A DNA stretch of 39,505 nt. Source: Chloroflexota bacterium (GTDB lineage Bacteria > Chloroflexota > Anaerolineae > B4-G1). The notes beneath the pieces are model-generated. The model ran no database searches, was not told where the DNA came from, and saw only the letters and a program-made list of their open reading frames with translations. The DNA lies in the NCBI GenBank assembly GCA_024232355.1, contig JAAEPW010000005.1:1-39505 (forward strand), written 5' to 3'. Shown one piece after another: positions 14,406 through 32,777 of this stretch. Each line of letters begins with the position of its first letter. Position 1 is the stretch's first letter. Position numbers and translations under genes: made by a program.

Positions 14406-14489
14406 ATCGTATCACAAAACAGGGAAAAAAGGTGAAAATGGGAACGATTCTTGATTTTTGGGCCGGGTGTGCAAAAAAGATTTGTTACC
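14406..14489 (-). promoter_or_regulatory. Conserved promoter region P1 (sulfatase/flippase genes)
   Basis: On the minus strand GGTAACAAATC begins at 14489 and the -10 hexamer TACGAT (14411-14406) begins exactly 78 bp further on. CGTTCCCA lies at offset 44-51. No good -35 is visible. The same layout occurs at P2 (18307-18224) and P3 (32777-32694). The gene-free stretch 14355-14592 holds nothing else that was recognised. Confidence 0.65.
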
Positions 14490-14592
14490 AGTTCTGCCTG
14501 GCCAATGGAATAGGTGAGAAAGGTCAAATTCGCGGAGAGATAACGGTGAATGAGACACATCCCTGGCGCATCGTCGTGCAGGGAGCGTCGAG

Positions 14593-16275
14593 TTAATCTA
14601 GGTAGCCCAAGTTGCGCAATCGGTCGAGCAATTCCTGTTCCTCACGTTCAGAAAGCTGCTCTTCTTGCGGCTCACTCGCTGCCCAATCGTCGTCTTGACA
14701 AGTCTCAATAGGGCGCGCGGCCCAATCAGGTGCGAGTCGTTTGGTTAGCACTTGACCGTCTATGCTTTTGGGTACGGGGCATCCCAACAAGTGAAGGGCC
14801 GTGGGGGCGACGTCTATCAACGAGGCAGCGGGCGCTTTCCCGTCGGTTTTGGCTATCCCTGGCCCGGCGGCGATCAATGTGCCGTTTAGGCGGTGGCTTC
14901 CTGTCTCGTGGGTAGGCGAAGGGGTAAATATGACGCCGGGCTTGTATCCAAACTCGTGCCCCTGGCGCGTAACATAAGCCAAATCGCGCATCACGACGAT
15001 CAGGTCTGGCGCGTTGACAGCGTGCGGGCCGTGATAGAGTTCCTCTGATGTGAATGTCTGGCTGACGACAGGTTGGCCGTCGTCTGGGTCCGTCCACCGA
15101 CCCAGCGATTCGCATATCCGCTGGCGAACGCGCTCGAATTCTTCGCCGGGGGGCACGATCCCGCCAGGCTCGCGGCCGGATACGTTGAGGTAGATTTGTC
15201 CGTAATATCCAAAGCTGTACGCTTGGGTCTTGGACCAGTCGATCACTTCGGCAAAGTCGCCCCATCTGTCGCGGGGCAGCGCGTCGATCCGTTCTCCCAG
15301 GAGGCGTTTGATCCAGCTTTCCACGCGAGACAGGCGCAGCGCGCGCAGGATGCGGGATGCATTCGCGCGCGTAATCCCCAAACGGGCCAGCGTTCGCCGA
15401 GCGGTCTTTGGGGGTTTTACGACCAGGAATCCCTCCCGCCGCAGCCACTCGTTCAGGATGACGTCTTTGTAGAGCGGCCCCGTGCCGTGGTCCGAGATAA
15501 TGAGCACGGTGGTCTCGGGTCCCGCAGCGTCGACCAGCTTTTGCACAGCTTGATCGAGCCGGCGGTAACAATCCAGAATGGCATCTTGATAGGGTTGCGC
15601 GCGTACTTTGTCGTGGGCGGGGTGGGTCTCGTCCATATAGCTCCAGAAGGCGTGCGCGATCTCGTCTGTGCCGCGATAGACTATCATAAAAAAGTCCCAC
15701 GGCTCCTCGTCCATCAGGCGGAGCGCGGATCGGGTCAGCTTTTCCGAGATGTCGTATGTATCGTCCATAAAGGCGCGTTCGCTGCCCGGACGCTGGTGAA
15801 ACACCCGCCGGTTGACCCGATAGCCATCCTGAAGCAAACGCGCACCTAGTGCCTGGGGGTGTGTAAAATCCTGATGGTTTGGCGTGCCCAACCCGGATAC
15901 CAGAAAGCCGTTGACAGGTTCGGGGGGATAGGTCATTGGCACGTTGACGACGCCCACTTGCAGACCACTGTCACCCAGGATGCGCCACAGAGAGCGCCCG
16001 GACATGTGCTGCCGGGTCACCGGTCGCAGGCGATAGCTCTCGGGATGGCGGCTGACAAAGTCGTACAAGCCGTGCTTGCCGGGGTTCATCCCCGTCATGA
16101 ACGACGCCCAAGCAGCGGACGAGATGACGGGATATACAGAGCGCAGATGGCTATAGCTGCCTCGTGCCATCAAATCAGCCATTGCGGGCAGGTGACCCGC
16201 CCGCGCCCAAGGTTCGATCAAATCCAGCGTTGCACCGTCCAGACCAATTATTAACAATCGTTGCACACGTGCCAT
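14593..16275 (-). CDS. AlkP-superfamily phosphohydrolase/phosphomutase-like protein, copy 1
   Basis: 560 residues, ATG at 16275 with GGGAGG 5 nt upstream. It belongs to the type I phosphodiesterase/alkaline phosphatase superfamily (COG3379-like). D13 (GLDGAT) is the first metal ligand. The predicted nucleophile is S52 in PVISSAAW, nine residues before the TG of SFMTGMNPGKHGLYDF. ISDHGTGP gives the Asp-His metal pair, and the late His lies in GSHRLNGTLIAAGPG. No signal peptide is seen, so it is probably cytoplasmic or peripheral. The C-terminus ends in a short acidic helix and RLRNLGYLD, an ending common in this family. The substrate is unknown. It is a paralogue of the protein at 24292 inside the glycan operon. 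Confidence 0.87.
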   Translation of the reverse strand: MARVQRLLIIGLDGATLDLIEPWARAGHLPAMADLMARGSYSHLRSVYPVISSAAWASFMTGMNPGKHGLYDFVSRHPESYRLRPVTRQHMSGRSLWRILGDSGLQVGVVNVPMTYPPEPVNGFLVSGLGTPNHQDFTHPQALGARLLQDGYRVNRRVFHQRPGSERAFMDDTYDISEKLTRSALRLMDEEPWDFFMIVYRGTDEIAHAFWSYMDETHPAHDKVRAQPYQDAILDCYRRLDQAVQKLVDAAGPETTVLIISDHGTGPLYKDVILNEWLRREGFLVVKPPKTARRTLARLGITRANASRILRALRLSRVESWIKRLLGERIDALPRDRWGDFAEVIDWSKTQAYSFGYYGQIYLNVSGREPGGIVPPGEEFERVRQRICESLGRWTDPDDGQPVVSQTFTSEELYHGPHAVNAPDLIVVMRDLAYVTRQGHEFGYKPGVIFTPSPTHETGSHRLNGTLIAAGPGIAKTDGKAPAASLIDVAPTALHLLGCPVPKSIDGQVLTKRLAPDWAARPIETCQDDDWAASEPQEEQLSEREEQELLDRLRNLGYLD

Positions 16276-16301
16276 TGTTACCTCCCTAAATCAATAGTCA
16301 A

Positions 16302-16329
16302 ATTGTAGAGCAGTTCAATGAAAAGGCAA
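16302..16329 (-). promoter_or_regulatory. Possible promoter for AlkP-like copy 1
   Basis: On the minus strand TTGCCT (16329-16324), a 16-bp spacer and TACAAT (16307-16302) lie 27 bp before the ATG at 16275, within the short gap after the FN3 gene. Confidence 0.45.
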
Positions 16330-16347
16330 GTTTTCTAGGCCCTGAAT

Positions 16348-18125
16348 CTACTGCCCTCTGGGATTGCGTGTGAGCAAGGGCAAATAGACATAGCTGCCGT
16401 TGACGATGACGGTGGCTGAAACACTTTCTTCACTACCGGACACTTTTTCTTCAGCCACGAATTTCACGAATTATCACGAATGTGGAGAGGCAAATTTGTG
16501 GAAATTCGTGGCAAAAAGATAGGCTTTTGTCTTGTGGAAACTCGCTTTGCACAAAAGTGTCCGGTAGTGGAATAGAGAATAATCTTTGCCACCAGGGGCA
16601 AAAGGATGAACTCGGCAAGCGGTAGTGTTGTCGCCTGGGCAATGCCGCTGTAGCCAGAACTGCCGACCTCGTTGTAAGCCTGCACACGGTAATAGTAGGT
16701 TGTGTTGTATGCGAGATATGTGTCGACGTAACTGGTATCTGTGTACACCAACGAGCCGATGAGGTTGGTCACCACGCCGGTCTGGGTCCAACTGTAGCCG
16801 TCGGGTGAGCGCTCTATCCTGAAACCAAGTTCGTCGTTGCTGTTATCCTGCCACGTCAGTGTGATGGCTGTCTGCGAGGTCAGTGTCGCTGTCAGATGGC
16901 TGGGTGTGGTGGGGGTTCCGTCCGGACAAGCGAAGGTTTTGTCTCCCGCGACGTTGGCGTAATCTGACCCCCCTCCCGCGTTGTACGCTTGCACGCGGTA
17001 ATAGTAGGCAGTGTCGCACGTGAGGTTGGTGTCGGCATACGTTGTTACGTCGGTCATCACCGTGCCAATCGGCAGCCAGACACTGCTGCCGCCGGGCGAA
17101 CGTTCGACGGCAAAGCCGTCCTCGTTGTCGCTGTTGTCGGTTCAGATCAACGTGATGGCCGTCTGCGAGGTCAACGTCACCGCCAGATCGCTTGGTGCGG
17201 TGGGGCAGGCCGTGGTGTCACCGCTCACAATGTTGGTGTGTTCAGAGTCGACGTTGACGATACAAGCTCGCACGCGGTAATGGTAGGATGTTTCACAACT
17301 CAGACCAGTATCGGTGTACGTCGTCACGGCTGGTGGAACTGTGCCAACCTGCCCCCAGTCGTTGATGCCATCGAGCGAACGTTCGATCTTAAAGCCGCTC
17401 TCGTTGTCGCTGTTGTCGGTCCAGGCCAGTGTGATATCTGCTGACGAGGCTTGTATCAATGTCAGATTGCTGGGTGCGTTCAGTAGAGGGATATCTGCCT
17501 CTACTCGAACGTCATCCACCTGCCAGTAGTAGTGGTAATATTTCATATCAAAGTAGTCAAAGCGGATCATCACATTGGATTGCCACGCAGCTTGAGCAGT
17601 GATATCCACCGTAACAGCCCCTTGGTAGAACCAACCCTCGGACCAGACATGGGTCCAGGTATTCCCGTTATCGGTGCTTACGAGCACAGACACCCATCCG
17701 TCAAAGCCCGTCAAATAATAGGTGTTGAATTTCAATGTGACGGAGCTATAATTGGAGAGGTCCAGCACTGGCGTGTCCAGTGTGGTGATCAGACCATCGA
17801 AAAAGTCACCGTCGGCGATGGCAAAATTCCCGCTGCCACCGGTCTCATTGTCCCGTTCTCCGGGATTATCAAAAACCCAACCTTTATAGTCGCTCGTGAT
17901 CCACCCGGTTGGCAGCTCTCCTGAGGCAAAATCCTCAGAGAGCACGGTAGTTACGTCCATACTCGCGTTCATCTTGCTGCTCTGTCGCGCGACAGGTGGC
18001 ATAGGCTCTTCTATCGGCGCTGCGCTGGCTACGTCGACGCCCCATATCAAGCCGATCAGTATCAGTCCCGTCAATACCCATCTGGAATACTTGAACCACG
18101 TAGAAGCAAATTGAGCGTGAATCAT
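16348..18125 (-). pseudogene. Secreted FN3-domain protein, broken by in-frame TGA and a MITE
   Basis: The ATG at 18125 is chosen because AAAGGAGATC lies just upstream; an in-frame ATG at 18164 lacks such a site. Residues 1-36 are a signal peptide (ending VASA before API). About 50-220 is a jelly-roll-like domain (SEDFASGELPTGWITSDY), followed by three FN3 domains. Codon 328 (17144-17142) is TGA where domains 1 and 3 have the conserved Trp of TLAW/TLTW; the same frame continues without another stop to 16464. The tail is also interrupted after codon 519 by a 137-bp element (16432-16568). Without it the frame runs on for 27 codons, including VYLPLLTRN, to TAG at 16348. The intact ancestor would be 546 residues. 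A shorter product up to codon 327 could still be made. Two lesions favour a decaying gene. Confidence 0.8.
16432..16568. mobile_element. 137-bp miniature inverted-repeat element
   Basis: Ends are perfect 16-bp inverted repeats: ACTACCGGACACTTTT (16432-16447) and AAAAGTGTCCGGTAGT (16553-16568). Inside, CCACGAATTTC and GAAATTCGTGG form an inner palindrome, with further CACGAAT copies. No transposase is encoded and no target duplication is evident. Deleting exactly these 137 bp restores the FN3 gene's reading frame and a sensible C-terminus, which defines the insertion precisely. Confidence 0.82.
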
Positions 18126-18223
18126 CGTTGTGATCTCCTTTATCAAATGCTCATTGGAACCCATCGAAACGGCCAGTTCCCTAACACATCGGCGTTGTTC
18201 AGAAACAACACCGACTTGTGCTT

Positions 18224-18307
18224 ATCATACTACAAAACTGCGTACGAGGGTCCAAGTGGTAACGTTTCTTTTTTGATTAGGGCCAAGTGAAAAAAAGATT
18301 TGTTACC
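18224..18307 (-). promoter_or_regulatory. Conserved promoter region P2 (FN3 gene)
   Basis: On the minus strand GGTAACAAATC begins at 18307 and the -10 TATGAT (18229-18224) begins exactly 78 bp on; CGTTACCA at offset 44-51 is an inverted match to TGGTAACG. No good -35. Downstream in the leader, CGGCGTTGTT and AACAACACCG (18190-18213) form a tight hairpin with one mismatch before the start codon. Confidence 0.65.
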
Positions 18308-18354
18308 AATTTCGCGCGATTTGACTTTTAGATGCTAGGGGCGTAGTGGGGAGG

Positions 18355-18591
18355 GGGTATTATCCCCATACGCATCAAGCTAAGGGCCGCTCACGTCGCT
18401 CATAGGGGTTTGCAACCCCGGTTTGGAGAGAACCGTACCGAAACTACGATAACAAGTCTACTTTTTACAACGGTATGTCGCCAAAACGCGGGTGGCAACC
18501 CGCTGAGAGCGATGGGGGTCAAGTTTGAGTTTTCGAGTGTTCGGCTTTCTATACGGTAACGTTTAACTTGATGTGTATGGGTATTATCCCA
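18355..18591. repeat. Palindromic intergenic element, about 237 bp
   Basis: Arms at 18355-18383 and 18563-18591 are inverted copies (core TTARCTTGATGYGTATGG, 16 of 18 bases). Nested inside are GGGGTTTGCAACCCC (18405-18419) and GCGGGTGGCAACCCGC (18488-18503), each with related flanks in opposite orientation. No coding capacity. It fills the gap between the end of the glycan operon (18626) and P2, and could also help stop transcription. Confidence 0.55.
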
Positions 18592-18625
18592 CAGGATTTG
18601 TCACGTTCTCTTACTATAGAGTTGT

Positions 18626-20080
18626 TTAATCGCGGCGGCGATCTTGAAGCGCCTGGCGAACGAGCTGCCGGTCATGGCGAGGAATTCCACCGCTGGCTAC
18701 CAGGGCACCACAATACACCACGATCCCAATCAGGATGACGGCCCAAACAGGCAGATCGTAGTACGCCAAAACTGCGCCGCACATCAGCGCTGTCGCCAGA
18801 GCCGAGCGCCACAACAAGCGGATCAGGCTGGTGTCCAATTTTGCCACGACGAATCGCAGCACCAAATAGTTGGAAAAGAAAAAGAGCGCGGATGAACATA
18901 TTCGAGCCAGCGCCGCCCCTCGCGCACCTAGCAATGGCGTCAACCATAGATTCAGGGCCACGTTGACAGCCATACTGCCCACCATCATCCACGTCACCCA
19001 TCCCTGGCGGTTGTGGACGAACATCATCCGCACGTTGGGCACGTTCAAAAAGGTAAAGATCAGGGCGATGGACAGGCTTTGCAACACACCCACGCTGGGG
19101 AGGAACTCGGACTCGAATATCAGGGGGATGATGGCCGGTGCGAGCAACACCAGCCCGGCGACCATCGGCAAAACCAACGTACCCAGGTAGCGCAGGGATG
19201 ACTTGTATAGACGTACCAGTTTTTGCCGTTCCTCGGCGTAGGATGCCATCAGGGGATAGACGGCCAGCCGGTACGCCTGGGGCATCATTGCCAAAGTGGA
19301 CACGATGGTGGTCGCTGCCCCGTACCATCCCACCTCGCTTTCGCCTTGCAGTATGGACAGCAGTATCGTGTCGATTTGGAACTCGATCGCCATCAGGAAT
19401 CCGTTGACCACAAAAGGCAGCATGTCGCTCAATTCCCGGCGCACCAGCGACCAATCCAACACCCGTTGGTCAGGCGGGACTGGTATCTTTTTGACTTGCA
19501 GCCCTACCCAGGGCACCAGTACCGCCATTCCGACGACGCTGCTGCCCCACCACAACGCGGCCACGTAATGCATTGGCGTTTCCCGAGACAGCAGCACCGC
19601 TCCCCCGGTCAGGCGGAGCAGGCACACGCCGACGGCTACCAAGGTGGGGGCGATAAAACGGCGCTGTCCCAGCATCACTGCGCCAGCACCACTGATGAGG
19701 CTGTCGGAGACAAGGCCCGCCGATACGATCAGGATGGGGATCAACGTTCCCGTTGGGTAGCGCAGAAAAACACACACCACGACTGTAAGCAGGCCGTACA
19801 GGACGACGTTCAACCCGAAACGCAGCGTCATAAAGGTGACGAAATACCGCCGGGTGTCCCGGGGAAAGCGTGCCACTTGTCGCACGACCAGTTCGTCGAG
19901 CCCCCGCGTGAGTACGGAAAATATCAGCAGGTACGTGGTCGCCAACTGAAAGATGCCTGCTTCCGAGACGCCCATCCTGCGCCCGATAAAGATAAACATC
20001 AAGGCGTTGGCGGCACGGGTGGATACGTTCAACACCAGGGATAGGGCCGAGTTCCGTGCCAGTTCGGTGAACGCTTTCAT
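18626..20080 (-). CDS. Polysaccharide flippase, last gene of glycan operon
   Basis: 484 residues. The ATG at 20080 overlaps the methyltransferase stop (ATGA); the open frame reaches 20287 only as overlap. About 12-14 transmembrane helices run along its length. The start (LARNSALSLVLNVSTRAANA, then GRRMGVSEAGIFQLATTYLL) and the loop GESEVGWYGAATTIV mark a Wzx-like exporter of lipid-linked oligosaccharides. It is a distant paralogue of the flippase at 11338. The end is basic (RHDRQLVRQALQDRRRD), presumably cytoplasmic. It likely exports the unit built by the enzymes encoded just upstream. Confidence 0.9.
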   Translation of the reverse strand: MKAFTELARNSALSLVLNVSTRAANALMFIFIGRRMGVSEAGIFQLATTYLLIFSVLTRGLDELVVRQVARFPRDTRRYFVTFMTLRFGLNVVLYGLLTVVVCVFLRYPTGTLIPILIVSAGLVSDSLISGAGAVMLGQRRFIAPTLVAVGVCLLRLTGGAVLLSRETPMHYVAALWWGSSVVGMAVLVPWVGLQVKKIPVPPDQRVLDWSLVRRELSDMLPFVVNGFLMAIEFQIDTILLSILQGESEVGWYGAATTIVSTLAMMPQAYRLAVYPLMASYAEERQKLVRLYKSSLRYLGTLVLPMVAGLVLLAPAIIPLIFESEFLPSVGVLQSLSIALIFTFLNVPNVRMMFVHNRQGWVTWMMVGSMAVNVALNLWLTPLLGARGAALARICSSALFFFSNYLVLRFVVAKLDTSLIRLLWRSALATALMCGAVLAYYDLPVWAVILIGIVVYCGALVASGGIPRHDRQLVRQALQDRRRD

Positions 20081-21030
20081 CGGGCATCCGTTTTGCGGGC
20101 CACGATCGTCAGTTTGCTGCCGCGCCCCAGCCGGTCGGCGATGGCCGTGATGGGCATAAAGGGCAGCCGCATCCCAGGTATGCTGAGCAAGCAAAGCCAG
20201 AGCTTGCGTGCGGTCTGGTGGCGCACGCGCTGGTTGATCCACAGTCGCAGGCTGGCGGTAAAAGTGTAATATCCTCCAAAAGCGCACTGTGCGTGCACGA
20301 CGTCAAAGCCGGCGCGGTCGAGCATGTCGCGCAAAATGTCCCGCGAGAATACGTGCAGGTGGCGCGGCGCGTCGTAGCCGATCCAGTAGCGGCCAAAGAG
20401 TTGACGATCCCAGCTTTCATAATGGGGCACCGCAATCACGACGATGCCGTCTGCTTTTAGCAGCCGGTGTATGGTTTGCAGCGTTTCCAGGGGATCAAAG
20501 GTATGCTCCAGCACGTCCCACAGCGTCACCGCTGTGAATTGACCGGCTGGTAGATCGGCGTCCGCCAAAAGGCCCTCGAATGCGTCCAGGCCAAATCGCT
20601 CGCGGGCGTATGCTATCGCAATCGGGCTGATATCGACACCGTACGTTTCCCAGCCCGCGTCACGCATCTCGGCCAAAAAGATGCCTGTCGAGCAGCCGAC
20701 GTCCAGCACTCGTCTAGGGACATGGCGGCTAAATCGTTCGACGGCGCGGCGGCGTTGGCGAATGTTGTAGCGGCGCACCCAGCGCATCAACGCCCACCGT
20801 TCGTCTTCGATGGCCGACTTGTAGGGCAAATAGTCGGCAGGGTAGTAGTGGTCCATCTGCGCCGGGCCTGGGCGCGGGTTTAGGTACATCAACCCACATT
20901 GGCGACAGCGGACCAGGGGGAACTCGCCCGGCCCGTCAAAGCCGTAATCGCGCAGTGTCAGTAGCCGCTCCGCGTCGTCCGCTTCGCACAGGCTGCAAAA
21001 AGTGGTCTCCATCGCCGGGTTATGCTCCAT
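20077..21030 (-). CDS. Methyltransferase with N-terminal zinc-binding motif, glycan operon
   Basis: 317 residues from the ATG at 21030, which overlaps the glycosyltransferase stop; an ATG six codons later (21012), with GGAG upstream, is an alternative. The N-terminus has CxxC (CSLCEA) and CxxC (CRQCGLMYLNPRP), the usual head of Methyltransf_23 proteins. The SAM loop is VLDVGCSTGIFLAEM, followed by YGVDISPIAIAYA and TLWDVLEHTFDP. Members of this family often methylate sugars in surface-polysaccharide loci; the acceptor is unknown. The gene is translationally coupled to both neighbours. Confidence 0.87.
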   Translation of the reverse strand: MEHNPAMETTFCSLCEADDAERLLTLRDYGFDGPGEFPLVRCRQCGLMYLNPRPGPAQMDHYYPADYLPYKSAIEDERWALMRWVRRYNIRQRRRAVERFSRHVPRRVLDVGCSTGIFLAEMRDAGWETYGVDISPIAIAYARERFGLDAFEGLLADADLPAGQFTAVTLWDVLEHTFDPLETLQTIHRLLKADGIVVIAVPHYESWDRQLFGRYWIGYDAPRHLHVFSRDILRDMLDRAGFDVVHAQCAFGGYYTFTASLRLWINQRVRHQTARKLWLCLLSIPGMRLPFMPITAIADRLGRGSKLTIVARKTDAR

Positions 21031-22189
21031 CCAGTATTTTGCGATAGAACGATTCCAGTGGATCGGTCAGGTGACGCCAGGTGAACTCTGTCTCTGCCAG
21101 GTGACGAGCCTGCCGTCCCATTTCCTCGCGCTGTTGGGGGTCTTGGAGCAATTTTAGCATTTTGTCCGCTATATCCTTTGGCTCATCCTTGGATAGCAAG
21201 CCGATGGGGTGTTGTTCCAAGAAGGCGGTCAGGTCGCCCACAGCGGTGGCGACGACGGGACGCCCGACGGCGATATAGTCGTTCAGTTTGAGCGGCCAGC
21301 GCCCGCGATTGGCCCCGCTGTCGTTCAGCGGCAGCCAGCAGACGTCGCAGGCAGAGAGGTAGTGGGCGATTTCGTCGTAGCGCACGTGTCCGGTGCGAAT
21401 TACGGCCTCTGGCGCGTCCACCAATTGTTCCACGGCGACGTTGCAGTAACCGATCAGCAGCAAGCGCACGCGCGGGTCGGCGGCGTGGATCAGGTCAAAG
21501 GCGCGGGCCATCAGTTCTGCATCGCGACGGAAAATAGCGCCGATGTAGCCGATGATGGGGGCCTGGGCCGGCAGGTTTGCCCACTTGCGGGCTTGTTCTT
21601 GAGGGTGCGGGCGCAGGGTCTCCACCTCGCTGCCGTTGCGCAGCAGCAGGATCGTCTGCGGCGGCACGCCCAGCTCGATGGCTTTTTGACGCAGTACCGT
21701 GTTGATGACGGTGGTTCCGTCTGCCCAGGGCCGAAAGGCCTCTTCGAAAAAGGTCTCCACGGGGCGCAAGATTGCGCGCATCAACGGGTTGGGCCGTTCC
21801 TCGACCGAGCCGCCGCGACCGAACCAGTCGCACCAGTCCATCACGAGCTTGACGCCGCGACGACGTTGAAGGTAAAGTGCGGGGAAAATCGCCACAGGAC
21901 GCGCTTCAAAGGCGTGCACCAGGTCGTACTCTTTTCCCCTCAGCCAGTTTATGCGCGCCAGTGTGCCCCAGGGGTCCCAGCCGGAGCGGAGCGAACCCCA
22001 CAGCAAGTCGGGTGACTCGACAATCTGAATATCGTTTTCCTGCCGCACGCGAAAGCGCAGACGACGGTCATTCGACGTCGCCAGCAGCGTCACGCTGTGG
22101 CCGCGCTCGGCCAGGCTGAACCCAAAGTGCAGCGCCCGCCAGTAGGTGCCCGTGCCGACCCGATTGTAGAGCAGCATCAGGATGCGCAA
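21020..22189 (-). CDS. GT4-like glycosyltransferase (GT-B fold)
   Basis: 389 residues from a TTG at 22189, chosen because GAGGAG lies 5-6 nt upstream and the protein then opens as (M)RILMLLYNRVGTG, the usual first strand of GT4 enzymes; the ATG at 22177 (TGATG with the preceding stop) is the alternative. N-terminal acceptor domain: LAERGHSVTLL and YDLVHAFEARP. C-terminal donor domain: IIGYIGAIFRRDAELMARAF, then YLSACDVCWLPL and PLKLNDYIAVGRPVVAT. It should transfer a nucleotide-activated sugar to a lipid-linked or glycan acceptor in the cytoplasm. Sugar specificity cannot be read. Confidence 0.87.
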   Translation of the reverse strand: MRILMLLYNRVGTGTYWRALHFGFSLAERGHSVTLLATSNDRRLRFRVRQENDIQIVESPDLLWGSLRSGWDPWGTLARINWLRGKEYDLVHAFEARPVAIFPALYLQRRRGVKLVMDWCDWFGRGGSVEERPNPLMRAILRPVETFFEEAFRPWADGTTVINTVLRQKAIELGVPPQTILLLRNGSEVETLRPHPQEQARKWANLPAQAPIIGYIGAIFRRDAELMARAFDLIHAADPRVRLLLIGYCNVAVEQLVDAPEAVIRTGHVRYDEIAHYLSACDVCWLPLNDSGANRGRWPLKLNDYIAVGRPVVATAVGDLTAFLEQHPIGLLSKDEPKDIADKMLKLLQDPQQREEMGRQARHLAETEFTWRHLTDPLESFYRKILDGA

Positions 22190-24254: not shown

Positions 24255-24273
24255 TTTTCCTCCTGAAAGTGTG

Positions 24274-24291
24274 GGACCTCGTCAGAGGTCC
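24274..24291 (-). other. Perfect hairpin between AlkP-like copy 2 and the epimerase
   Basis: GGACCTC (24274-24280), GTCA loop, GAGGTCC (24285-24291). It abuts the stop codon of the upstream gene and is followed by no T-tract on the minus strand, so partial attenuation or mRNA processing within the operon is more likely than full termination. Confidence 0.45.
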
Positions 24292-25980
24292 TCATAAATA
24301 TCCCAAATCCTCCAGACGTTGTGCGACCTTGGCGGCATCCTCTTCCGTATAGGTCACTGTATCCTGGAGGGGCTGCGCAGTCGCGGTCACATCTGATGAC
24401 GACGCGCTGGCAATTGTGCCCTCGACGAACGCCGAGTGCAGCACTGTGCCGTCCATATATTTGGGGATGGGCAGGTCCAAAATCCCCAGGATGGTCGGCG
24501 CCAGGTCGAGGATGCGTGCTCCTTCAACGGTCGTTCTAGGCTCGACGCCGGGGCCGCTGGCGATGAATATGCCGTCGGGGCGATGTGTGCCCGATAGGCG
24601 CAATTTGTTGAAATCCATTTCCTTCTGCGTTTCAAAGATTGGGGCCTGTTGGATGTCGTATCGTCCACGCCCCCAGTATCCGTAATCGACCCATTCGATG
24701 ATCAGGTCTGGGGCTTGTTCGAGACAGGGGCCGTGATACTGTTCCTCTCGCCGCCAGACGCGATGCACGATGCGCTCGCCGGTTTCTGGGTCTTGCAAGG
24801 CCATCAGTTTATCTATCAGTTTGTCTCTCAGAGCCTCGTACTCGACACCTGGCTGCACGATGCCTTCAGGCTCCCGTCCGGCGACGTTCAGGTAGATGTT
24901 CCCCGCGGCCCCAAGGGCATAGGCTTTGGTCTCTCCCCACTCGATGGCGGACGTAAAGAGCACGGTCTCCATATCACCCTTGAGTTGTTCGAACCGTTGG
25001 ACGCCAAGTTGAGAGCGCACCCTGGCCCGCAATGCGGCAGGCGCGTAACGACTATAGATGCCCGCTGCCTTTTCGACCAACCGAGAGCGCCATTGTCCTC
25101 TTGTCTTGTTCCGCGAGGCGCGAAAATGCAAAAAATCCGCTTCGGCCAGCCAGCGGTTGAGGTTCACGATTGCACGTAGCGGTCCCGCGCCATGGTCGGA
25201 TATGACGATGACGGTGGTGTCCTCGTCGATGCGTTCGAGCAGAGCGCCAATCGCGACATCTATGTGCTGGTACACGTCTCGGATGGCGTGTCTGAAGCGG
25301 GCAGCATCGTCGTCCTCGTCCGCTTCCATACAGTGCCAGAAGAAATGCTGTATCTGGTCGCTGGCCATAAAGACGGCGACAAAAAGGTCCCAAGGTTCGG
25401 TATCCATCAGGTGAACGGCCAACTGCCGCCGATACTCTACGCCGCGTTTCAATGCGCTCACGTAGGAGGACATTGGGTCTGGCACTGTGGAATCATAGTC
25501 TGCCGTGATAAAGTAGCCGTCAGCCAAGCTCATCAGAGTATCGCCCAATTCTGGCGGGTAGACGATGCTGGCATCCGCCACTGGCGCGAACGGACCGCCG
25601 ACCACCACGCCGTTGACCGGACGGGGGGGAAAAGTGTAGGGGACGTTCAGCGCCACGACACGGCGGCCCTGATCGCCAACCAGATCGAATATTGTCGGTT
25701 TTGCGATTGCAGAGGTGTTCGTCACTTCTAATTTGTAGCTGTCAGGCCGCCGCCGCACGAAATCGTACAACCCGTGCTGACCCTGATTCACGCCGGTCAT
25801 AAAGGTTGTCCAGGCGGGGGCCGAGACTGGCTGCATAGTAGAGGTCAATGGGCCGCGACAACTTTGGGACATCAAGTTGGATAGGTTTGGCAGGTGACCT
25901 GCGGCTATCCACGGGTCGATCAGGTCAAAAGTGGCGGCATCTATACCGATGACCAATACTCGTTTGCGCGACGTTTCCAA
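24292..25980 (-). CDS. AlkP-superfamily phosphohydrolase/phosphomutase-like protein, copy 2
   Basis: 562 residues from a TTG at 25980, chosen because GGAG lies 7 nt upstream and the length then matches copy 1 (560). The frame is open further upstream but overlaps the previous gene. D14 (GIDAATFD), S53 in PVSAPAW (predicted nucleophile, nine residues before the TG of FMTGVNQGQHGLYDF), ISDHGAGP and SGTHRPDGIFIASGPG give the full metal/nucleophile set. It ends in an acidic helix and RLEDLGYL, like copy 1. No signal peptide. Within a glycan operon it may hydrolyse or transfer a phosphate or phosphodiester on a lipid-linked intermediate; that is inference. Confidence 0.87.
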   Translation of the reverse strand: METSRKRVLVIGIDAATFDLIDPWIAAGHLPNLSNLMSQSCRGPLTSTMQPVSAPAWTTFMTGVNQGQHGLYDFVRRRPDSYKLEVTNTSAIAKPTIFDLVGDQGRRVVALNVPYTFPPRPVNGVVVGGPFAPVADASIVYPPELGDTLMSLADGYFITADYDSTVPDPMSSYVSALKRGVEYRRQLAVHLMDTEPWDLFVAVFMASDQIQHFFWHCMEADEDDDAARFRHAIRDVYQHIDVAIGALLERIDEDTTVIVISDHGAGPLRAIVNLNRWLAEADFLHFRASRNKTRGQWRSRLVEKAAGIYSRYAPAALRARVRSQLGVQRFEQLKGDMETVLFTSAIEWGETKAYALGAAGNIYLNVAGREPEGIVQPGVEYEALRDKLIDKLMALQDPETGERIVHRVWRREEQYHGPCLEQAPDLIIEWVDYGYWGRGRYDIQQAPIFETQKEMDFNKLRLSGTHRPDGIFIASGPGVEPRTTVEGARILDLAPTILGILDLPIPKYMDGTVLHSAFVEGTIASASSSDVTATAQPLQDTVTYTEEDAAKVAQRLEDLGYL

Positions 25981-26033
25981 TATACTTCTCCGTAAATAGG
26001 GCACGGTTCCCGTACCCCTACAATTTGCGATTT

Positions 26034-27170
26034 TTAACGAGTTTTGTGATCTATAGCCTCGATCAGGTTCATCAATTGAACCCACGACGAGGTGTTGGGT
26101 GCATCATTTCGGCCCGATGTTGGCGAGTCTGGGGGTGTGGTAAAGAAACGGACGACGGCGTCTGCTAAAGCACGAGTATCGCCAGGTGATACCAGCAAGT
26201 TTGTTTCGTCGTCTGTGGGTTCTTTATCCTGCGTTATGTGTGTCGTCACCACTGGGATGCCAAACCCGCGCGCCATTTGCAGCACTGCACTCCCCGTCAC
26301 CCGTCGATATGGCGCGACCAGTACGTCCGCCGCCGAAAAGTACAGAGGCACCTCTTCGTTTGGAATGTAGCGATCCGCGATGATTACCGAGTTACGGATC
26401 CCCAACCGCTCGATCATTTCCAGGTACGGACGCTTGTCTTCCCAGAATTCGCCTGCCACCACGAGGATTACCTTTTCTAGTTGTGTCTGAACCTCAGGCA
26501 GTGCTGTCAGGATGTCTTGTAAGCCTTTATATTCTCTCACAATCCCAAAAAAGAGCAATACAGAAGCGTCTGGCGACAATTGCAGCTTTTTGCGGGCCTC
26601 ATCTCGGGGGATTCGTTCATCAGCGAACATGTCGAAAATCGGCAGGGGGATGATGGTTACCCGTGCATCTGGTAGTAGTGAAAGGAGTTGTTTCTTTTCC
26701 TCCGTAGACTGCACGCGGAAATCAGTCCCCCACCGCAACACCACTTTTGTCACGAGATGGTCCCACCAATGGGTCTCGTGGGGTAGCACGTTGTGACAGA
26801 TGACGACCAACCGCCGCCGTAAAAAGAGTCGATTTAGCAGCCCCAAGACGAACCACGCCGGAGCCCAAAAGACTGTCCACCATTGCAGGATAATTGCATC
26901 GGGTTTGTATTGGCATATGCGCCAAAAGGTCGTCAGCCAGGTGATGGGGTTCAGGGAATCGATCCAGTAGTAGACGTCTTGTACTTGTAAAGGTTTATTG
27001 CTGGGATCTTTGTCACTTTGCCCTGGAAAGAGCCACTGTGGGTATTGGCGTTTGAATGAAATGAGCAGCACTGTGTGCCCGCGAGCGCGCAAAGCCTGGT
27101 GGAGCATCGTCGTATAGTGGGCGATGCCTCCGCGATATGGGTATACTGGGCCGATGAGAACCAGCTTCAT
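26034..27170 (-). CDS. GT4 glycosyltransferase (GT-B fold)
   Basis: 378 residues, ATG at 27170 with AGGTGG 4-5 nt upstream; the frame is open to 27251, but the extra sequence has no ribosome binding site and overlaps the next gene. Acceptor domain: KLVLIGPVYPYRGGIAHYT (glycine-rich first loop) and VVICHNVLPHE. Donor domain: VLLFFGIVREYKGLQDIL, PNEEVPLYFSAADVLVAPYR and QMARGFGIPVV. A truncated copy of its first 80 residues occurs at 31228-31479 in the same operon. The sugar is unknown. Confidence 0.9.
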   Translation of the reverse strand: MKLVLIGPVYPYRGGIAHYTTMLHQALRARGHTVLLISFKRQYPQWLFPGQSDKDPSNKPLQVQDVYYWIDSLNPITWLTTFWRICQYKPDAIILQWWTVFWAPAWFVLGLLNRLFLRRRLVVICHNVLPHETHWWDHLVTKVVLRWGTDFRVQSTEEKKQLLSLLPDARVTIIPLPIFDMFADERIPRDEARKKLQLSPDASVLLFFGIVREYKGLQDILTALPEVQTQLEKVILVVAGEFWEDKRPYLEMIERLGIRNSVIIADRYIPNEEVPLYFSAADVLVAPYRRVTGSAVLQMARGFGIPVVTTHITQDKEPTDDETNLLVSPGDTRALADAVVRFFTTPPDSPTSGRNDAPNTSSWVQLMNLIEAIDHKTR

Positions 27171-27186
27171 TTTTCCACCTTGTACA

Positions 27187-29094
27187 CTATTCGATCTGAA
27201 AAATGAACACTCCACCTTCCTGGTAAAGCAAACGCACACCTTCCGCCTCACTCAGTTGGGTAGCGTTCAGCCCTGGGCCAGAGAAATCGCCCCTGCGCCC
27301 AACGTACACGTAATCAATGCCCATCGCCTGCAAATCTGGCAGGGATGCATTGTCAATTTCCAGTTGCTCTACCGCGTGCGACGTTTCGACGACAGCACTC
27401 CAGTATTCTCTTGCGCCCATGCCATTTATCATAGCGCCGACAGTCGTCTGACGATTTGTAAAGTAGGGAATCCAATATCCCGCGTCTGTGCCGTGGGGGC
27501 CGTTAGGCAGCCAAAAGTACGTGTTTACAGCAAATAACGCATCTAGCGGCGTGTTGGCATTGATCCAGTGCATAGCCGCCACGTCCTCTGGAGTGACAAA
27601 ATATCTGAATGGCTCAATTTCTGTAACCCTGACGTGGCTGGCGACGAAACTGGCAGCCAGAATGATCCCCAGCGTGAGCTTGATGCCAAACTCGCGCCAG
27701 CGCAAGTCTAACAGATTCACCAATTCTTGCACCGCAGAGCCGACGATCAATCCGATAGGGAGATAGAACATGATCAGAACAGCTCCCAGGTTGGTGATGC
27801 TCAAGAGTGGTATGCCCAAAACGTGAGCGTTCGCAACGAGGTACAAGGTGACCATCCATAACAGGCAGCAAATCACCAGCTTGTTGCGCCTGAACAGGCC
27901 AATCGCGGCGGCCAAACTTGCTAGAATCATCAACCACGGGCGCGCTACTAGTATTGGGAGCGAGTTCCACGGGAATTCATAGTATGCTTGTGCTACCTGG
28001 GGTACTTTGTAGGTGCGCCCCACAGCCTGAGCGGCGTTGAGAGCGTTTATGTGCGGAGCCACGTGGCTGTATGCCGCCTGCCACAAAGCTGGAGCAACGA
28101 CGATCAATGCAGTGATTCCAACTGCCATCGCTCCCAACAACACAGGGACAATTTGGCGCTCCTGGCGGGCTTTCCATAATTCCCATATGACACTGATAAT
28201 CAACAAAGGTATGTAAAAAGCGACCACACGAAAATGTAGCAGAAACATGGCTCCCGTCAACGTGGCGGCCAAGACCGTGCTCCACAGAATCCTGACTTTG
28301 TGTTCTCTCCACGAGAGTTTGTACGAGACGATGGCTTCCCACGTGATTAACCAGGCAATCAAGAGTATCGCTTGGCCAGATATCTGCGTAAAGCGCCCCC
28401 AGTTGACGTAAAAGGCGGGTTGATGCGCAAGCACTCCCGCGACAGCTGCGCCAACGACCGCGCCGAGCCGTCCCACCTTTCGATCCAGCACCAAGTAGAC
28501 GCCTGCGCCACACAGTCCATTCAGCACCTGCGCTGTCCACAATAGAGCCGTGTGCGCTGGAACCTGGGCTAGCCATTGTACAGTGGCAGAGAGCGCGTAT
28601 AATCCCAAGTGGTATTTCCCCAATGGAATGGGGTAATAGGGTTCCAGACTGGTAGGCAATTTCCCTTGCACGGCTGTAAGTTGGGTCAGCAAGGTATGAT
28701 GTAGTGAATCCGACCATGCGGGGTAAGGATGATCGCGGATGATCCAAAAACGGGTGAAAAGCGTCATACCCAAGATGCCAAGGGCCACCCATTCCAAACG
28801 GTCAAAAATGAATTGTTCTTTCCAATGCCCTCGCATCCGCCAGCCAATGATGATAGCACAAAGGAGAAGCAATGTGCCCATTTTAAAAGGACCGAATGTC
28901 AAAAATGGAATAACTGAGCGCGTGGCGTAGAAAAGCACCGGATAGAATGCGATGCTTATTCCTATAGCCACGATCCAGCGTTGCAACCCTTTCCATTGAC
29001 GCCAACTATGGTTCAAGGCCAACGCCGCCCACCCAGGCAGAGTGAACATTCCTATCAATACAATGGTCAGCCAAAGCCCTGTGGTTGTAGACAT
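27187..29094 (-). CDS. Multi-pass membrane protein, GT-C glycosyltransferase-like
   Basis: 635 residues, ATG at 29094, weak ribosome binding site. About 12 hydrophobic helices fill residues 5-480; a soluble, largely extracytoplasmic domain follows to the end. The first large loop contains PYPAWSDSLHHTLLTQL and later YHLGLYALSA, resembling the Asp-bearing loop of GT-C enzymes that use polyprenyl-phosphate sugars. Family assignment (GT39/PMT-like or DUF6541-like) is tentative. Its neighbour at 30078 is a polyprenyl-phosphate sugar synthase-like GT2, which would make such a donor; the two fit as a pair. Confidence 0.75.
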   Translation of the reverse strand: MSTTTGLWLTIVLIGMFTLPGWAALALNHSWRQWKGLQRWIVAIGISIAFYPVLFYATRSVIPFLTFGPFKMGTLLLLCAIIIGWRMRGHWKEQFIFDRLEWVALGILGMTLFTRFWIIRDHPYPAWSDSLHHTLLTQLTAVQGKLPTSLEPYYPIPLGKYHLGLYALSATVQWLAQVPAHTALLWTAQVLNGLCGAGVYLVLDRKVGRLGAVVGAAVAGVLAHQPAFYVNWGRFTQISGQAILLIAWLITWEAIVSYKLSWREHKVRILWSTVLAATLTGAMFLLHFRVVAFYIPLLIISVIWELWKARQERQIVPVLLGAMAVGITALIVVAPALWQAAYSHVAPHINALNAAQAVGRTYKVPQVAQAYYEFPWNSLPILVARPWLMILASLAAAIGLFRRNKLVICCLLWMVTLYLVANAHVLGIPLLSITNLGAVLIMFYLPIGLIVGSAVQELVNLLDLRWREFGIKLTLGIILAASFVASHVRVTEIEPFRYFVTPEDVAAMHWINANTPLDALFAVNTYFWLPNGPHGTDAGYWIPYFTNRQTTVGAMINGMGAREYWSAVVETSHAVEQLEIDNASLPDLQAMGIDYVYVGRRGDFSGPGLNATQLSEAEGVRLLYQEGGVFIFQIE

Positions 29095-29115
29095 TTGATA
29101 GTTCTCGTCGTAAAC

Positions 29116-30078
29116 TTAGGCTTTTTCCAAAACAAAGCAAACTTCACAGGGGAGTCCTGCTTTCAACAGGCTAACAGGTAACTTGGACAGTAGGGCATAA
29201 TATGCGGCATTAGACCAGTTGACCAATTTGTGCTTTGATTCCCGATGAAAATACGTCTGTATGATCTTGAAATTCTGCTTTGAGAAGAATTGCTTCCACT
29301 CTTTTAGTGTATAGCTATTTTCGTGGATTCCCCATTTGCGTGCTGTTTTGCCTTTTTTCCCCCAACGGCTATTCCAGAATAACTGGGGAAGTGAGCCTAT
29401 GGACAATTCGTTGACTATGTACCATCGTCCTTTAGGTTTGAGGACAGAGTAAGCTTGTTTCAGACCAGCCTCCAGGTGTCCCAAATGATGGAGCATCGCC
29501 GAACTGAAAATGAAATCAAAAGACTTGGGAATAAATGGTAATCTCTCTGCATCGCAAGTGACAAAATAATCAACGCCAAAGCCAAGCAGATGATCTACTT
29601 GCTCGCCAATCGCCATGTTTGTCGGCGCTACGTCAGACGTAACCATCTCCGTTTCTGGGAAAAACAGCTTGATAAAACCACTTTGGTGTCCAGTTCCCCC
29701 ACCAAGTTCTAATCCCCGTCCTTTGAGTTTATACTCTTGGGCAAAATTATCGCGAAAGAATAGATATTGGGAAGTAAATAGATAACCGGTTATTGCCGTC
29801 AGTAACTTGGAAAGGGTATGTTGGCTTTCGCTCTGCCAGTCTATCAAATTGGCATGGCGTTCGTAGGTTCGTACTCGGAATTGGTCTTCGGCCTTTTGGA
29901 ACGAATCCAGGTGAGAGGGTAACAAGTCAAAGCGGCGATCTGTTCGGCTTGACTGATAGGAGCAGGCTTTGTTGGTACAAATGATCCTGGTCTTGTGCTC
30001 TGCTGGCTCAAGTGAACTGCCACAATCAGGGCAAGCAATTATCTCCCAGAGCCAGTCTTGATTCTCTACAAATGACAT
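29116..30078 (-). CDS. Methyltransferase with N-terminal zinc-ribbon motif
   Basis: 320 residues, ATG at 30078 overlapping the preceding stop (TAATG). Residues 14-45 have CxxC (IACPDCGSSL) and a second Cys pair (ICTNKACSYQ), with FDLLP after, as in Trm112-like heads. The SAM loop is LELGGGTGHQSG, followed by TSDVAPTNM, CDAERLPFIPKSFDFIFSSAMLHHL and a Lys-rich C-terminal part. It is a class I enzyme of the Methyltransf_11 type. The acceptor is probably a sugar or lipid-linked glycan, judging only from the operon. Confidence 0.86.
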   Translation of the reverse strand: MSFVENQDWLWEIIACPDCGSSLEPAEHKTRIICTNKACSYQSSRTDRRFDLLPSHLDSFQKAEDQFRVRTYERHANLIDWQSESQHTLSKLLTAITGYLFTSQYLFFRDNFAQEYKLKGRGLELGGGTGHQSGFIKLFFPETEMVTSDVAPTNMAIGEQVDHLLGFGVDYFVTCDAERLPFIPKSFDFIFSSAMLHHLGHLEAGLKQAYSVLKPKGRWYIVNELSIGSLPQLFWNSRWGKKGKTARKWGIHENSYTLKEWKQFFSKQNFKIIQTYFHRESKHKLVNWSNAAYYALLSKLPVSLLKAGLPCEVCFVLEKA

Positions 30079-31055
30079 TATTTGGGAATCCCCGTTTCAT
30101 TCGAGATGTTTTGATTTTTCGTTTCCATTCGCCGCACCCGATACAGTGTATCTTCCAACATCCGGCGGTTCAATCGTACGAGGTCTGCTATTAGGCCTAT
30201 CAACCAGACTTGGAAACCAACGATAGTGAGAATCGCTGCCAAAATCAACGACTGCACATTGCCTGCTCCTCTTCCTTGAAGGAAAAAGTACAGAAACCGC
30301 AACCCGACTGTTGCACCGCTAGCGATGAACACACCTCCTATCATTGTGAAAACCCGCATAGGACGGTACATTGTGTAGAAACGAATAATAGTTCCAGCCG
30401 AAACAGCCAAAAAGGAGGGGATGCTACTTATCAACCGAGATGGACGGGTTTTGGGATTAGTGCGTATCGGGACATAGACAACTGCCATCCGGCGAACACC
30501 GGCCTGAATTAGCGTTTCCAGTGTATAGGTATAATCACTGAGGACGGTGAGACGCAGCACGGCATCGCGGGTAAAAGCTCGGAATCCGCTGGTAGCATCG
30601 GGGATTGGGATGCCGGCCGCTTGTTCCACGACCCAGCTTCCAAATCGTTGTAGCCATCGCTTGATAGGGGAGAAATATTCTAGCACTGCCACACCCCGAT
30701 CTCCAATGACGATGTCGGCTTGTCCATCCAGGATTGGCTGGACCAGACGACCGACGTCATCTCCCCGGTACTGATTATCGGCGTCAGTGTTGACAACAAT
30801 ATCCGCGCCGGCCATCAGGGCTGCTTCCAGTCCAACCATAAAGGCATGAGCCAACCCGCGATTTTGCTTCAACCTGATGATGTGATGTATTCCCAACTCT
30901 TGCGCCACATCGCTTGTGCGGTCGTTGCTACCATCATCTACGACCAGGTATTCAATTTCGTCCACGCCCGGCAAGGAGCGCGGTAGATCTTGTATCGTTT
31001 GTGGCAGAGTGGCTTCTTCATTGTAGCAGGGAATCTGAATCACAAGTTTCGTCAA
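30078..31055 (-). CDS. GT2 polyprenyl-phosphate sugar synthase-like (DPM1/ArnC type)
   Basis: 325 residues from a TTG at 31055, chosen because TGGAG lies 8 nt upstream and the protein opens as (M)[13 protein letters not shown]; upstream sequence holds the promoter and leader. GT-A motifs: VVDDGSNDRT, LKQNRGLAHA, NTDADNQYR (DxD) and IPDATSGFRAF. Two hydrophobic helices near the C-terminus (GGVFIASGATVGLRFLYFF and ILAAILTIVGFQVWLIGLIA) resemble polyisoprenyl-phosphate glycosyltransferases. It likely charges a lipid carrier with a sugar for an extracytoplasmic GT-C enzyme. A truncated copy lies at 32219-32506. Confidence 0.9.
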   Translation of the reverse strand: MTKLVIQIPCYNEEATLPQTIQDLPRSLPGVDEIEYLVVDDGSNDRTSDVAQELGIHHIIRLKQNRGLAHAFMVGLEAALMAGADIVVNTDADNQYRGDDVGRLVQPILDGQADIVIGDRGVAVLEYFSPIKRWLQRFGSWVVEQAAGIPIPDATSGFRAFTRDAVLRLTVLSDYTYTLETLIQAGVRRMAVVYVPIRTNPKTRPSRLISSIPSFLAVSAGTIIRFYTMYRPMRVFTMIGGVFIASGATVGLRFLYFFLQGRGAGNVQSLILAAILTIVGFQVWLIGLIADLVRLNRRMLEDTLYRVRRMETKNQNISNETGIPK

Positions 31056-31122
31056 AAGACACACTCCAGTTTGTGGAAAATATCGACTATAGGCAAGATG
31101 TACACCTCTGAAAACGGCGCGT

Positions 31123-31151
31123 ATTGTATCACGGGTATGTGCTCTCGTCAA
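31123..31151 (-). promoter_or_regulatory. Sigma-70 promoter of the GT2 gene (duplicated copy A)
   Basis: On the minus strand TTGACG (31151-31146), 17-bp spacer, TACAAT (31128-31123), followed by a leader of about 60 nt to the TTG at 31055. The same promoter with an identical spacer length occurs at 32602-32574. Confidence 0.68.
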
Positions 31152-31227
31152 CGAATGCGAGTCAGGTGACCAGAAAGTTGTCCATCACAGCAGAATGAGC
31201 ATACTTGGCCGATACTGTCATATGCGT

Positions 31228-31479
31228 CTAAACGACATCAACCAGGTAGGTTAGAGGGTTCAGGGAAGCAATCCAGTGGAGATCATCTTTTATTTGCAGT
31301 TGTTTTTCGCTCGAGTTCTTGTCGCTTTGTCTAGGAAAGAGCCACTGTGGGTACTGATGTTTGAATGAGACAAAGAGCACCGGGCACCTTTGCTTACGCA
31401 ACGCGTGATCGAGCATCGTGGTATAGTGGGCGATTACGCCTCGGTACGGATACACTGGATCAATCATCACCAGTTTCAC
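31228..31479 (-). pseudogene. Truncated GT4 glycosyltransferase fragment
   Basis: 83 residues, GTG at 31479 overlapping the methyltransferase stop (TAGTG). It matches the first 80 residues of the GT4 at 26034-27170 (for example PVYPYRG.IAHYTTML and FK.QYPQWLFP.QSDK) at roughly 60-65 percent. Similarity ends at SLNPLTYL, where the frame runs into VDVV and a stop. The donor-binding half is absent, so it cannot be an active GT4. It is probably a remnant of operon duplication and deletion. Confidence 0.85.
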
Positions 31480-32222
31480 TATTTTCCCTCAAGCAGTCCA
31501 CCCAATTCTGACACAGATGAATCTCGATCTTTTTTGCCCAAGATGAACTGTACATGCCAGGTCAGAAACTCACCCAACCACGGCAATCGAGCCAAGTTGA
31601 ATGGAAGGTATCGTGTTGATTCATGCCTGACCTGTAACTGGGCATCCGCAATGAGTTGCCGCACGCGGCGGATGGTCAATGGGTATATCCCCCAATCGCC
31701 ACAGGCAGTGGCAAAACTGTCCACTTTTTTCCCAGAGAGACGTATTGCCCAACGTTCACCCAATAGATGGTAGGGTTTGAATTGGTGACCACCTATAGGG
31801 GTGTAGAAAGGGGGGAAACTCAGATAGGCAACACCATCAGGTGTTAGCACTCGCTTGATCTCGAGCAAAAGCTGAATAGGCTCAGGGACGTGCTCAATCA
31901 AGCTGGCACAAAAGACCAGGGAGAAGCGGTTAGAATCAAAAGGGAGTTGAATGGCATCCGCTAACACAAAATCTGGCGGTATTATCCGCGGTCGTTTCAG
32001 ATCAGTCGAGATTACGCGTGCGCCGGCATTTGTCATAGCCTGGCCGTATCCTCCAGTGTAGGAGGCCAGGTCGAGTACTTGATCACTTTGGATGCAAATA
32101 CCTTGTTCAGCCAGGTAATCAAGAATCAAATTCCCTTGATAGATCTGAAATCGAAGATAGTCATCACTGCTACGAAAACGACGGCGGGCCAGACGCAATA
32201 AGGTCATCCACTCACGAATCAT
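31479..32222 (-). CDS. Class I SAM-dependent methyltransferase
   Basis: 247 residues, ATG at 32222 overlapping the stop of the truncated GT2 fragment (ATGA). SAM loop [15 protein letters not shown], acidic [34 protein letters not shown] and [13 protein letters not shown]. The loop has LASYTGG instead of the usual LGCGTG, slightly atypical but of workable form. Unlike the other methyltransferases here it has no zinc-ribbon head. It is flanked on both sides by truncated glycosyltransferases, so it is the only apparently intact gene of that duplicated block. Confidence 0.85.
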
Positions 32223-32506
32223 TGTGGATTTTCTCCAGCGTTGACGACAGCATCTGCATCAACCATTAGGGTTGCTTCCAGCCCAACTATAAAGGCATGA
32301 GCCAATCTATGATTTTGCTTCAACTTGATGATGTGATGTCCGCCCAATTCCCGCGCTACCTCGGTAGTGCGGTCGGTGCTGCCATCGTCTATGACCAGGT
32401 ATTCGATTTCATCCACACCTGGTAGGGAGCGGGGTAGGTCTTGTACTGTTTGAGGGAGGGTGGTCTCTTCGTTGTAGCAGGGGATCTGAATCACAAGTTT
32501 CGTCAA
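32219..32506 (-). pseudogene. Truncated GT2 glycosyltransferase fragment
   Basis: 95 residues from a TTG at 32506 (same GGAG spacing as the full copy). It is about 80-85 percent identical to the first 90 residues of the GT2 at 30078-31055 and keeps IPCYNEE and [10 protein letters not shown]. It stops right after VVNAGENPQ, where the full protein reads VVNTDADNQ, so the DxD metal site and everything after it are missing. It overlaps the methyltransferase start by 4 bp and may now serve only to couple that gene's translation. Confidence 0.87.
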
Positions 32507-32604
32507 AAGACACACTCCAGTTTGTGGAAAATATCAAGTATTAGCAAGATGTACACCTCTGAAAACGGCGCGTATTGTATCACGGGTATGTAGTCCCGTC
32601 AACG
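32236..32604 (-). repeat. Segmental duplication, copy B (copy A about 30785-31152)
   Basis: The coding start of the GT2, its leader and its promoter are repeated at high identity in both places; for example CACAAGTTTCGTCAAAAGAC and ACCTCTGAAAACGGCGCGTA occur in each. Similarity ends on the outer side just past the TTGACG box and on the inner side within the GT2 coding region. Confidence 0.85.
32574..32602 (-). promoter_or_regulatory. Sigma-70 promoter at head of the glycan operon (copy B)
   Basis: On the minus strand TTGACG (32602-32597), 17-bp spacer, TACAAT (32579-32574). It lies about 115 bp downstream of the conserved region P3, so the operon seems to have tandem promoters. Confidence 0.65.
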
Positions 32605-32693
32605 AATATGATAGAGAACGCTTCTAGATGGATATCCTCAGATTAACACTGCTTGCAAAAGTTGTGTTTGATTGCTGCGGAAAATCCATACAA

Positions 32694-32777
32694 ATTATAT
32701 CACTAAACGGCAAAAGGTGGGGAAATGGAAGTATTTCTTGATTATACCTGAGGGATGTGTGAAAAAGATTTGTTAAC
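32694..32777 (-). promoter_or_regulatory. Conserved promoter region P3 (glycan operon)
   Basis: On the minus strand GTTAACAAATC begins at 32777 and TATAAT (32699-32694) begins exactly 78 bp on; ACTTCCA lies at the middle site. No good -35. It reads toward the glycan operon. The gene-free stretch 32507-32933 contains P3, the tandem sigma-70 promoter, the leader and, on the other side, the ribosome binding site of the gene at 32934; nothing else was recognised. Confidence 0.65.

Follow-up and report, generated by a model that had tools for sequence, protein, structure and literature searches.

Three intergenic regions on the minus strand of a 39,505-nucleotide stretch of DNA from a member of the Chloroflexota (GenBank assembly GCA_024232355.1, contig JAAEPW010000005.1, positions 1 to 39,505; this whole stretch is referred to as the window) raise the question of what stands in for a -35 element in promoters that appear to have none. 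The regions, designated P1, P2, and P3, share an upstream box that is followed at a fixed distance by a -10-like hexamer and that faces an inverted copy of the longer site to which it belongs. These motifs, their copies, their orientation, their spacing, and the lack of a consensus -35 are observed directly, and together they make up a promoter signature that is real, well defined, and represented by three members.

A Common Box at a Fixed Distance from the -10 Element

The common box is located at the following positions:

Start at 14490, minus strand: box TGGTAACAAATCTTTTT of P1
Start at 18308, minus strand: box TGGTAACAAATCTTTTT of P2
Start at 32778, minus strand: box TGTTAACAAATCTTTTT of P3

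An earlier reading, made from the letters alone (the sequence-only reading), had claimed that a near-identical box is common to the three regions and that each box is followed by a -10-like hexamer at an equal distance, and this is borne out by the sequences. The -10 element starts at +78 from the second base of the box (G at 14489, 18307, and 32777) in 3 of 3 cases; counted from the first T of the box the distance is 79, and the sequence-only reading mixed the two origins by one base.

The fixed-spacing pattern occurs 3 times in the window vs. a mean of 0.00 in 100 dinucleotide shuffles. This pattern was picked post hoc, and hence two further tests were carried out in which no motif was preset. 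A search of 15 intergenic stretches (4,424 bases, delimited by a gene list made by hand from open reading frames (ORFs) and Pfam hits) for the 16-mer best matched in two further stretches returned the box of P1, P2, and P3, with 31 of 32 letters matching vs. a maximum of 27 in 60 shuffles. The other test, which uses an 18-column window and is anchored on the box, so that it tests the spacing, slid the regions from offset 51 onward independently of each other; out of 98,470 placements, the top two, with 11 columns shared by all three regions, had zero shift, as did the ten further placements listed. A chance origin of the shared box and its spacing is rejected by the shuffles, the triple 16-mer search, and the sliding test.

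Paired Inverted 18-Base-Pair Sites

The sequence-only reading had also noted an opposite-facing half-site at an equal offset in P1 and P2 and 1 base farther on in P3. The half-site is present as claimed, and it is part of something larger, viz. an inverted second copy of a whole 18-base-pair (bp) site, T-tract included. The six copies are as follows:

14473-14490, minus strand: P1 distal site, TGGTAACAAATCTTTTTT
14439-14456, plus strand: P1 proximal site, inverted copy reading TGGGAACGATTCTTGATT, 13/18 identical to the distal site
18291-18308, minus strand: P2 distal site, TGGTAACAAATCTTTTTT
18257-18274, plus strand: P2 proximal site, inverted copy reading TGGTAACGTTTCTTTTTT, 15/18 identical to the distal TGGTAACAAATCTTTTTT
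32761-32778, minus strand: P3 distal site, TGTTAACAAATCTTTTTC
32726-32743, plus strand: P3 proximal site, weak inverted copy reading TGGAAGTATTTCTTGATT, 9/18 identical, one base off

The arrangement common to the three regions consists of TGGTAACNNNTCTTTTTT, a spacer of 16 bp in P1 and P2 and 17 bp in P3, and then AAAAAAGANNNGTTACCA, for an overall length of 52-53 bp, with the proximal copy ending 27 bp before the -10 in P1 and P2 and 26 bp before it in P3. The core of the site is TGGTAAC-N3-TCTT, followed by an inward-facing T-tract.

The proximal copy is clear in P2, good in P1, and weak in P3. When a weight model is built from the three distal boxes only, the reverse-strand segment that scores highest in each region lies at offset 33-50 in P1 as in P2 and at offset 34-51 in P3, and the share of window positions that score at least as well as the proximal copy (the distal sites and the site itself being counted in) is 8.9e-5 for P1, 5.1e-5 for P2, and 1.3e-3 for P3. 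A model extended by the proximal copies of P1 and P2, but not by that of P3, ranks the three distal and the three proximal copies as the top six sites in the window. Among 8,338 intergenic 18-mers, the share that matches the distal site as well as the proximal copy does is 0.0005 for P1, 0.0008 for P2, and 0.03 for P3. The tenth-best match to the site in the window, a weak one reading CGATAACAAGTCTACTTT on the plus strand (18447-18464), is located in the intergenic region of P2 itself.

An inverted pair could in principle be a hairpin or a terminator, and the P2 pair, folded as single-stranded DNA, does beat its shuffles (z -3.4; 1 of 200 shuffles as good). The pairs of P1 (z 0.0) and P3 (z +1.4), however, fold no better than shuffles, nothing like a terminator was found at P1 or P2, and the sole terminator-like site in the P3 region lies elsewhere, at 32833-32855 on the plus strand, which leaves this explanation hardly credible. 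A comparison with Rfam gave no match at gathering scores.

The -10 Elements and the Sigma Factor

The three -10 elements and the blocks that precede them are as follows:

14406-14421, minus strand: P1 block TGTTTTGTGA with extended -10 TACGAT (14411-14406)
18224-18239, minus strand: P2 block AGTTTTGTAG with -10 TATGAT (18229-18224)
32694-32709, minus strand: P3 block CGTTTAGTGA with extended -10 TATAAT (32699-32694)

Alignment of the three regions confirms that a GTTTTGTGA-like block lies ahead of the -10, as had been proposed from the letters. The absence of a recognisable -35 is upheld likewise: no hexamer pair reaches 9/12 at P1 or P2, the only such pair in the P3 region belongs to a separate promoter farther downstream, and a TTGACA-like -35 located 16-18 bp before the -10, which defines a consensus sigma-70 promoter, was found at none of P1, P2, and P3. 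A looser scan returns an 8/12 pair, TTTGCA-N17-AAGAAT, in the operator region of P1.

The lack of a consensus -35 and the conserved block directly before the -10 are also what would be expected if the GTTTTGTGA-TAYRAT block were read by an alternative sigma factor acting together with an upstream activator, an option that the sequence-only reading had offered. The GTGATAYRAT part of this block, however, occurs 4 times in the window, in each case in intergenic DNA, and the four occurrences are P1, P3, and two promoters of the form TTGACG-N17-TACAAT (32602-32574 and 31151-31123) in which it lies behind a TTGACG -35 at 17 bp. An alternative sigma factor is thus disfavored and we regard it as very unlikely. 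The presence of the extended -10 of P1 and P3 in two consensus promoters, although the cases are few, favors the primary sigma factor, and the simplest reading would be that a single primary sigma factor serves all of these promoters and that in P1, P2, and P3 the upstream pair does the work of the -35.

Conservation Between and Around the Blocks

The number of columns that are identical in all three regions is 16/18 in the distal site, 4/16 in the spacer, 6/17 in the linker between the proximal site and the pre-10 block, 6/10 in that block, 4/6 in the -10, and 2/21 in the 21 bases past it. The leaders of P1 (14384-14374, offset 105) and P3 (32673-32663, offset 104) both contain AATCAAACACA, which is absent at that place in P2, whereas the P2 leader opens with a near-perfect hairpin, TCGGTGTTGTT-TCTG-AACAACGCCGA (18214-18189, by eye).

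Such partial similarity raises the question of whether a dispersed intergenic repeat or the duplication of a promoter gave rise to the three regions, in which case the spacing would be inherited and not selected. The presence of other duplications in the locus, the sharing of AATCAAACACA by two leaders, and the partial conservation of the linker would all fit such an origin. Against it, identity peaks in the blocks, is poorer in the spacer, and in the flanks (20-base windows) mostly amounts to only 3-8/20 between pairs, with a maximum of 10/20 (P1-P2, near -40); moreover, the clear duplication near P3 leaves P3 itself out, beginning farther downstream with the -35 of the promoter that follows. 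Common descent as repeats is in our judgment quite unlikely.

A Proposed Activator-Dependent Promoter

The reading that we favor, and which we hold to be likely on the strength of the sequence features described above, is that transcription from P1, P2, and P3 depends on an activator as well as on the primary sigma factor, with two inverted 18-bp operators replacing the -35. The operator would consist of two inverted copies of TGGTAACNNNTCTTTTTT with their T-tracts directed inward and a 16-bp spacer (17 in P3) between them. If transcription starts 6-8 bp past the -10, the pair would occupy approximately -91 to -40 relative to the start, with the two copies at about -91 to -74 and -57 to -40. 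An activator, as a dimer or a tetramer, would occupy both copies, perhaps aided by bending of the DNA at the A/T tracts, and would make up for the missing -35 by recruiting RNA polymerase. From these features we infer protein binding, activation, use of the -10s, and co-regulation of the three genes. The earlier suggestion of an activator that contacts two opposed sites fits this scheme and is strengthened by the full-length inverted copies and the missing -35.

The paired sites might instead bind a repressor or a looping silencer, in which case P1, P2, and P3 would be weak promoters of the extended -10 type held in the off state. Paired inverted operators are common for repressors too, and this lends the alternative some weight; however, the sites end at about -40, leaving the -10 and the expected start free, and the promoter lacks a -35 that could lend it strength unaided. 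We consider repression unlikely.

Several observations weigh against the activator scheme. The instances number only three and all come from one contig, and the exact fixed-spacing pattern matches no Chloroflexota contig in GTDB r220. The proximal copy of P3 is weak (9/18, equaled by 3% of the 8,338 intergenic 18-mers) and one base off, so that in a straight register only 4/18 columns of the proximal site are identical in all three. The linker at offsets 51-67, which belongs to neither site, shares more than the spacer does and is about as conserved as the proximal site (6/17; pairwise 47-59%); hence, conserved columns also occur outside the named boxes. The TGn extension of P1 and P3 is absent from P2, which has TAG in its place and, in the looser scan, shows a weak 8/12 pair, TGGACC-N16-TAGTAT, that overlaps the -10 in another register. 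P3 contains a second TATAAT (32746-32741) in the spacer adjoining the proximal site. Lastly, a Pfam scan of 30 ORFs, out of 112 ORFs of at least 90 amino acids (aa) in the window, many of which are spurious, revealed no recognisable transcription regulator.

Among known systems, a similar geometry is seen in the FlhDC box of the flagellar promoters of Escherichia coli. These promoters have a poor -35, and the FlhDC box lies just upstream of it. The sites of P1, P2, and P3 may work in the manner of FlhDC, but we do not class them as FlhDC boxes: the FlhDC consensus AAYGSSNNAAATAGCG and TGGTAACNNNTCTTTTTT are by eye unrelated, the present sites being two inverted 18-bp copies that span 52-53 bp, with a spacer (16-17 bp) longer than that of the FlhDC box and exact dimensions that differ, and FlhDC serves flagellar genes whereas here the host belongs to the Chloroflexota and the genes are those of glycan and secreted proteins. 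In comparison with extended -10 promoters of the primary sigma factor, P1 and P3 are alike in having TGn before the -10 and no consensus -35; P2 has no TGn, and the upstream inverted pair at a fixed distance is an addition. Readings of the box as PhoB/PhoP-, WalR-, or IHF-like were set aside on inspection by eye.

Two further systems invite comparison. AimR of the arbitrium phage SPbeta bridges 6-bp boxes that lie 25 bp apart (PMC6458997); its operator is similar to the present one in having inverted boxes far apart, spacer parts rich in A/T, and one dimer that bridges both (PMC6458997), and differs in the length of the boxes and the spacer, in sequence, and in belonging to a phage. The Pcauto promoters of acetogens likewise represent a promoter motif that is new and comes from a little-studied bacterium. 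A TetR-family protein activates them, as does the housekeeping sigma factor (PMC6873888), which shows that an activating regulator can act at a new motif jointly with the housekeeping sigma factor. The Pcauto motif is reported to lie no more than 50 nucleotides from the start, with no other motif up to 150 nucleotides, whereas the paired sites here would reach about -91.

Genes Downstream and Neighboring Features

The features found downstream of the three regions are as follows:

12837-14354, minus strand: sulfatase-fold protein under P1, with a lipoprotein-like signal (..FAAC, by eye)
11338-12792: flippase after the sulfatase-fold gene of P1
17142-18125, minus strand: secreted protein under P2, with a weak choice-of-anchor J match and an FN3 domain
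32219-32515, minus strand: first gene after P3, a truncated duplicate of 98 aa, 78% identical to the start of the GT2 gene at 30078-31151
32574-32602, minus strand: consensus promoter TTGACG-N17-TACAAT between P3 and the first gene, in a duplicated block (other copy at 31151-31123)

The minus strand from 11 to 32.5 kb mostly encodes flippases, glycosyltransferases, methyltransferases, and phosphodiesterase/sulfatase-fold hydrolases, and the sequence-only reading had assigned the genes under the three promoters to one surface-glycan regulon. This proposal stands in part. The genes of P1, a sulfatase-fold lipoprotein and a flippase, fit it; the gene that follows the flippase (9662-11119) has a candidate promoter of its own, TTGATA-N17-TATACT, at 11295-11267. 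The support is limited by the gene of P2 and by the first gene after P3. The former has a signal peptide (by eye), and its choice-of-anchor J match of 25.1 bits is below the cut-off of 30; it ends at an in-frame stop (17142-17144) beyond which FN3-like sequence runs on in the same frame, which means that either the gene is broken or the assembly is in error. The latter is truncated and is preceded by a promoter of its own, although P3 may drive the long operon.

The duplicated block near P3 comprises the 5' region of the GT2 gene with its TTGACG-N17-TACAAT promoter (30785-31151 and 32236-32604), the upstream copy of the gene being truncated to 98 aa. A second duplication (71% over 241 bp) relates 26934-27174, the start of a GT1 gene (26034-27251), to 31243-31483, where the copy is a fragment between a methyltransferase gene and the GT2 gene; this duplicated fragment suggests shuffling within the glycan locus. 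Elsewhere in the window, positions 1-1500 belong to a gene for an FG-GAP protein with 8.4 tandem copies of a 177-bp unit, and 3414-6542 contains three consecutive M42 peptidase ORFs, apparently tandem duplicates, that share a 52-bp stretch. A 722-aa oxidoreductase (36243-38411) has 7,366 relatives at E <= 1e-100, and among the 120 matches listed those named by organism are from Chloroflexota or Anaerolineae and are 77-84% identical; three of the proteins listed are 95, 90, and 86% identical. The host is accordingly taken to be an uncultured member of the Chloroflexota, probably of the Anaerolineae.

Distribution and Significance of the Signature

The exact pattern, which tolerated only a single two-fold letter in the box and two in the -10 and kept the spacing invariant, gave 3 matches among the contigs of GTDB r220 (viz. 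Erysipelothrix, a metagenome-assembled genome of the Mycoplasmatales, and Campylobacter), two of which are inside ORFs; the third overlaps no ORF of 80 aa (translation table 11), and lies by eye in an open frame. IMG/VR gave one match of the exact pattern and one of a relaxed inverted-pair pattern, both inside ORFs. All five are taken as chance matches, each being in apparent coding DNA. These scans speak against a wide distribution of the exact motif and say little on a degenerate one. A plasmid of Thermomicrobium roseum, which belongs to another class (Thermomicrobia), has 3 single sites with one mismatch vs. 5 for a reversed-pattern control, which amounts to nothing, and a protein search of plasmids revealed no close relative, all 732 records being below 60% identity. 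A search of the literature in the PMC library, box strings included, found nothing on such a promoter motif in the Chloroflexota, as judged by title and listing.

With three sites on one contig, the signature is at present a good lead and not yet a discovery. It is possible, if doubtful, that the Chloroflexota have a hitherto undescribed activator that forms a class by itself, binds paired inverted operators of 52 bp in the way that FlhDC does at flagellar genes, and takes the place of the -35 in a lineage-specific regulon for surface polysaccharides and secreted proteins. The signature is strict and searchable (18-bp site, 16-17 bp, inverted 18-bp site, 26-27 bp, TAYRAT), and it would allow the members of a regulon to be listed from sequence alone and its regulator to be fished out.

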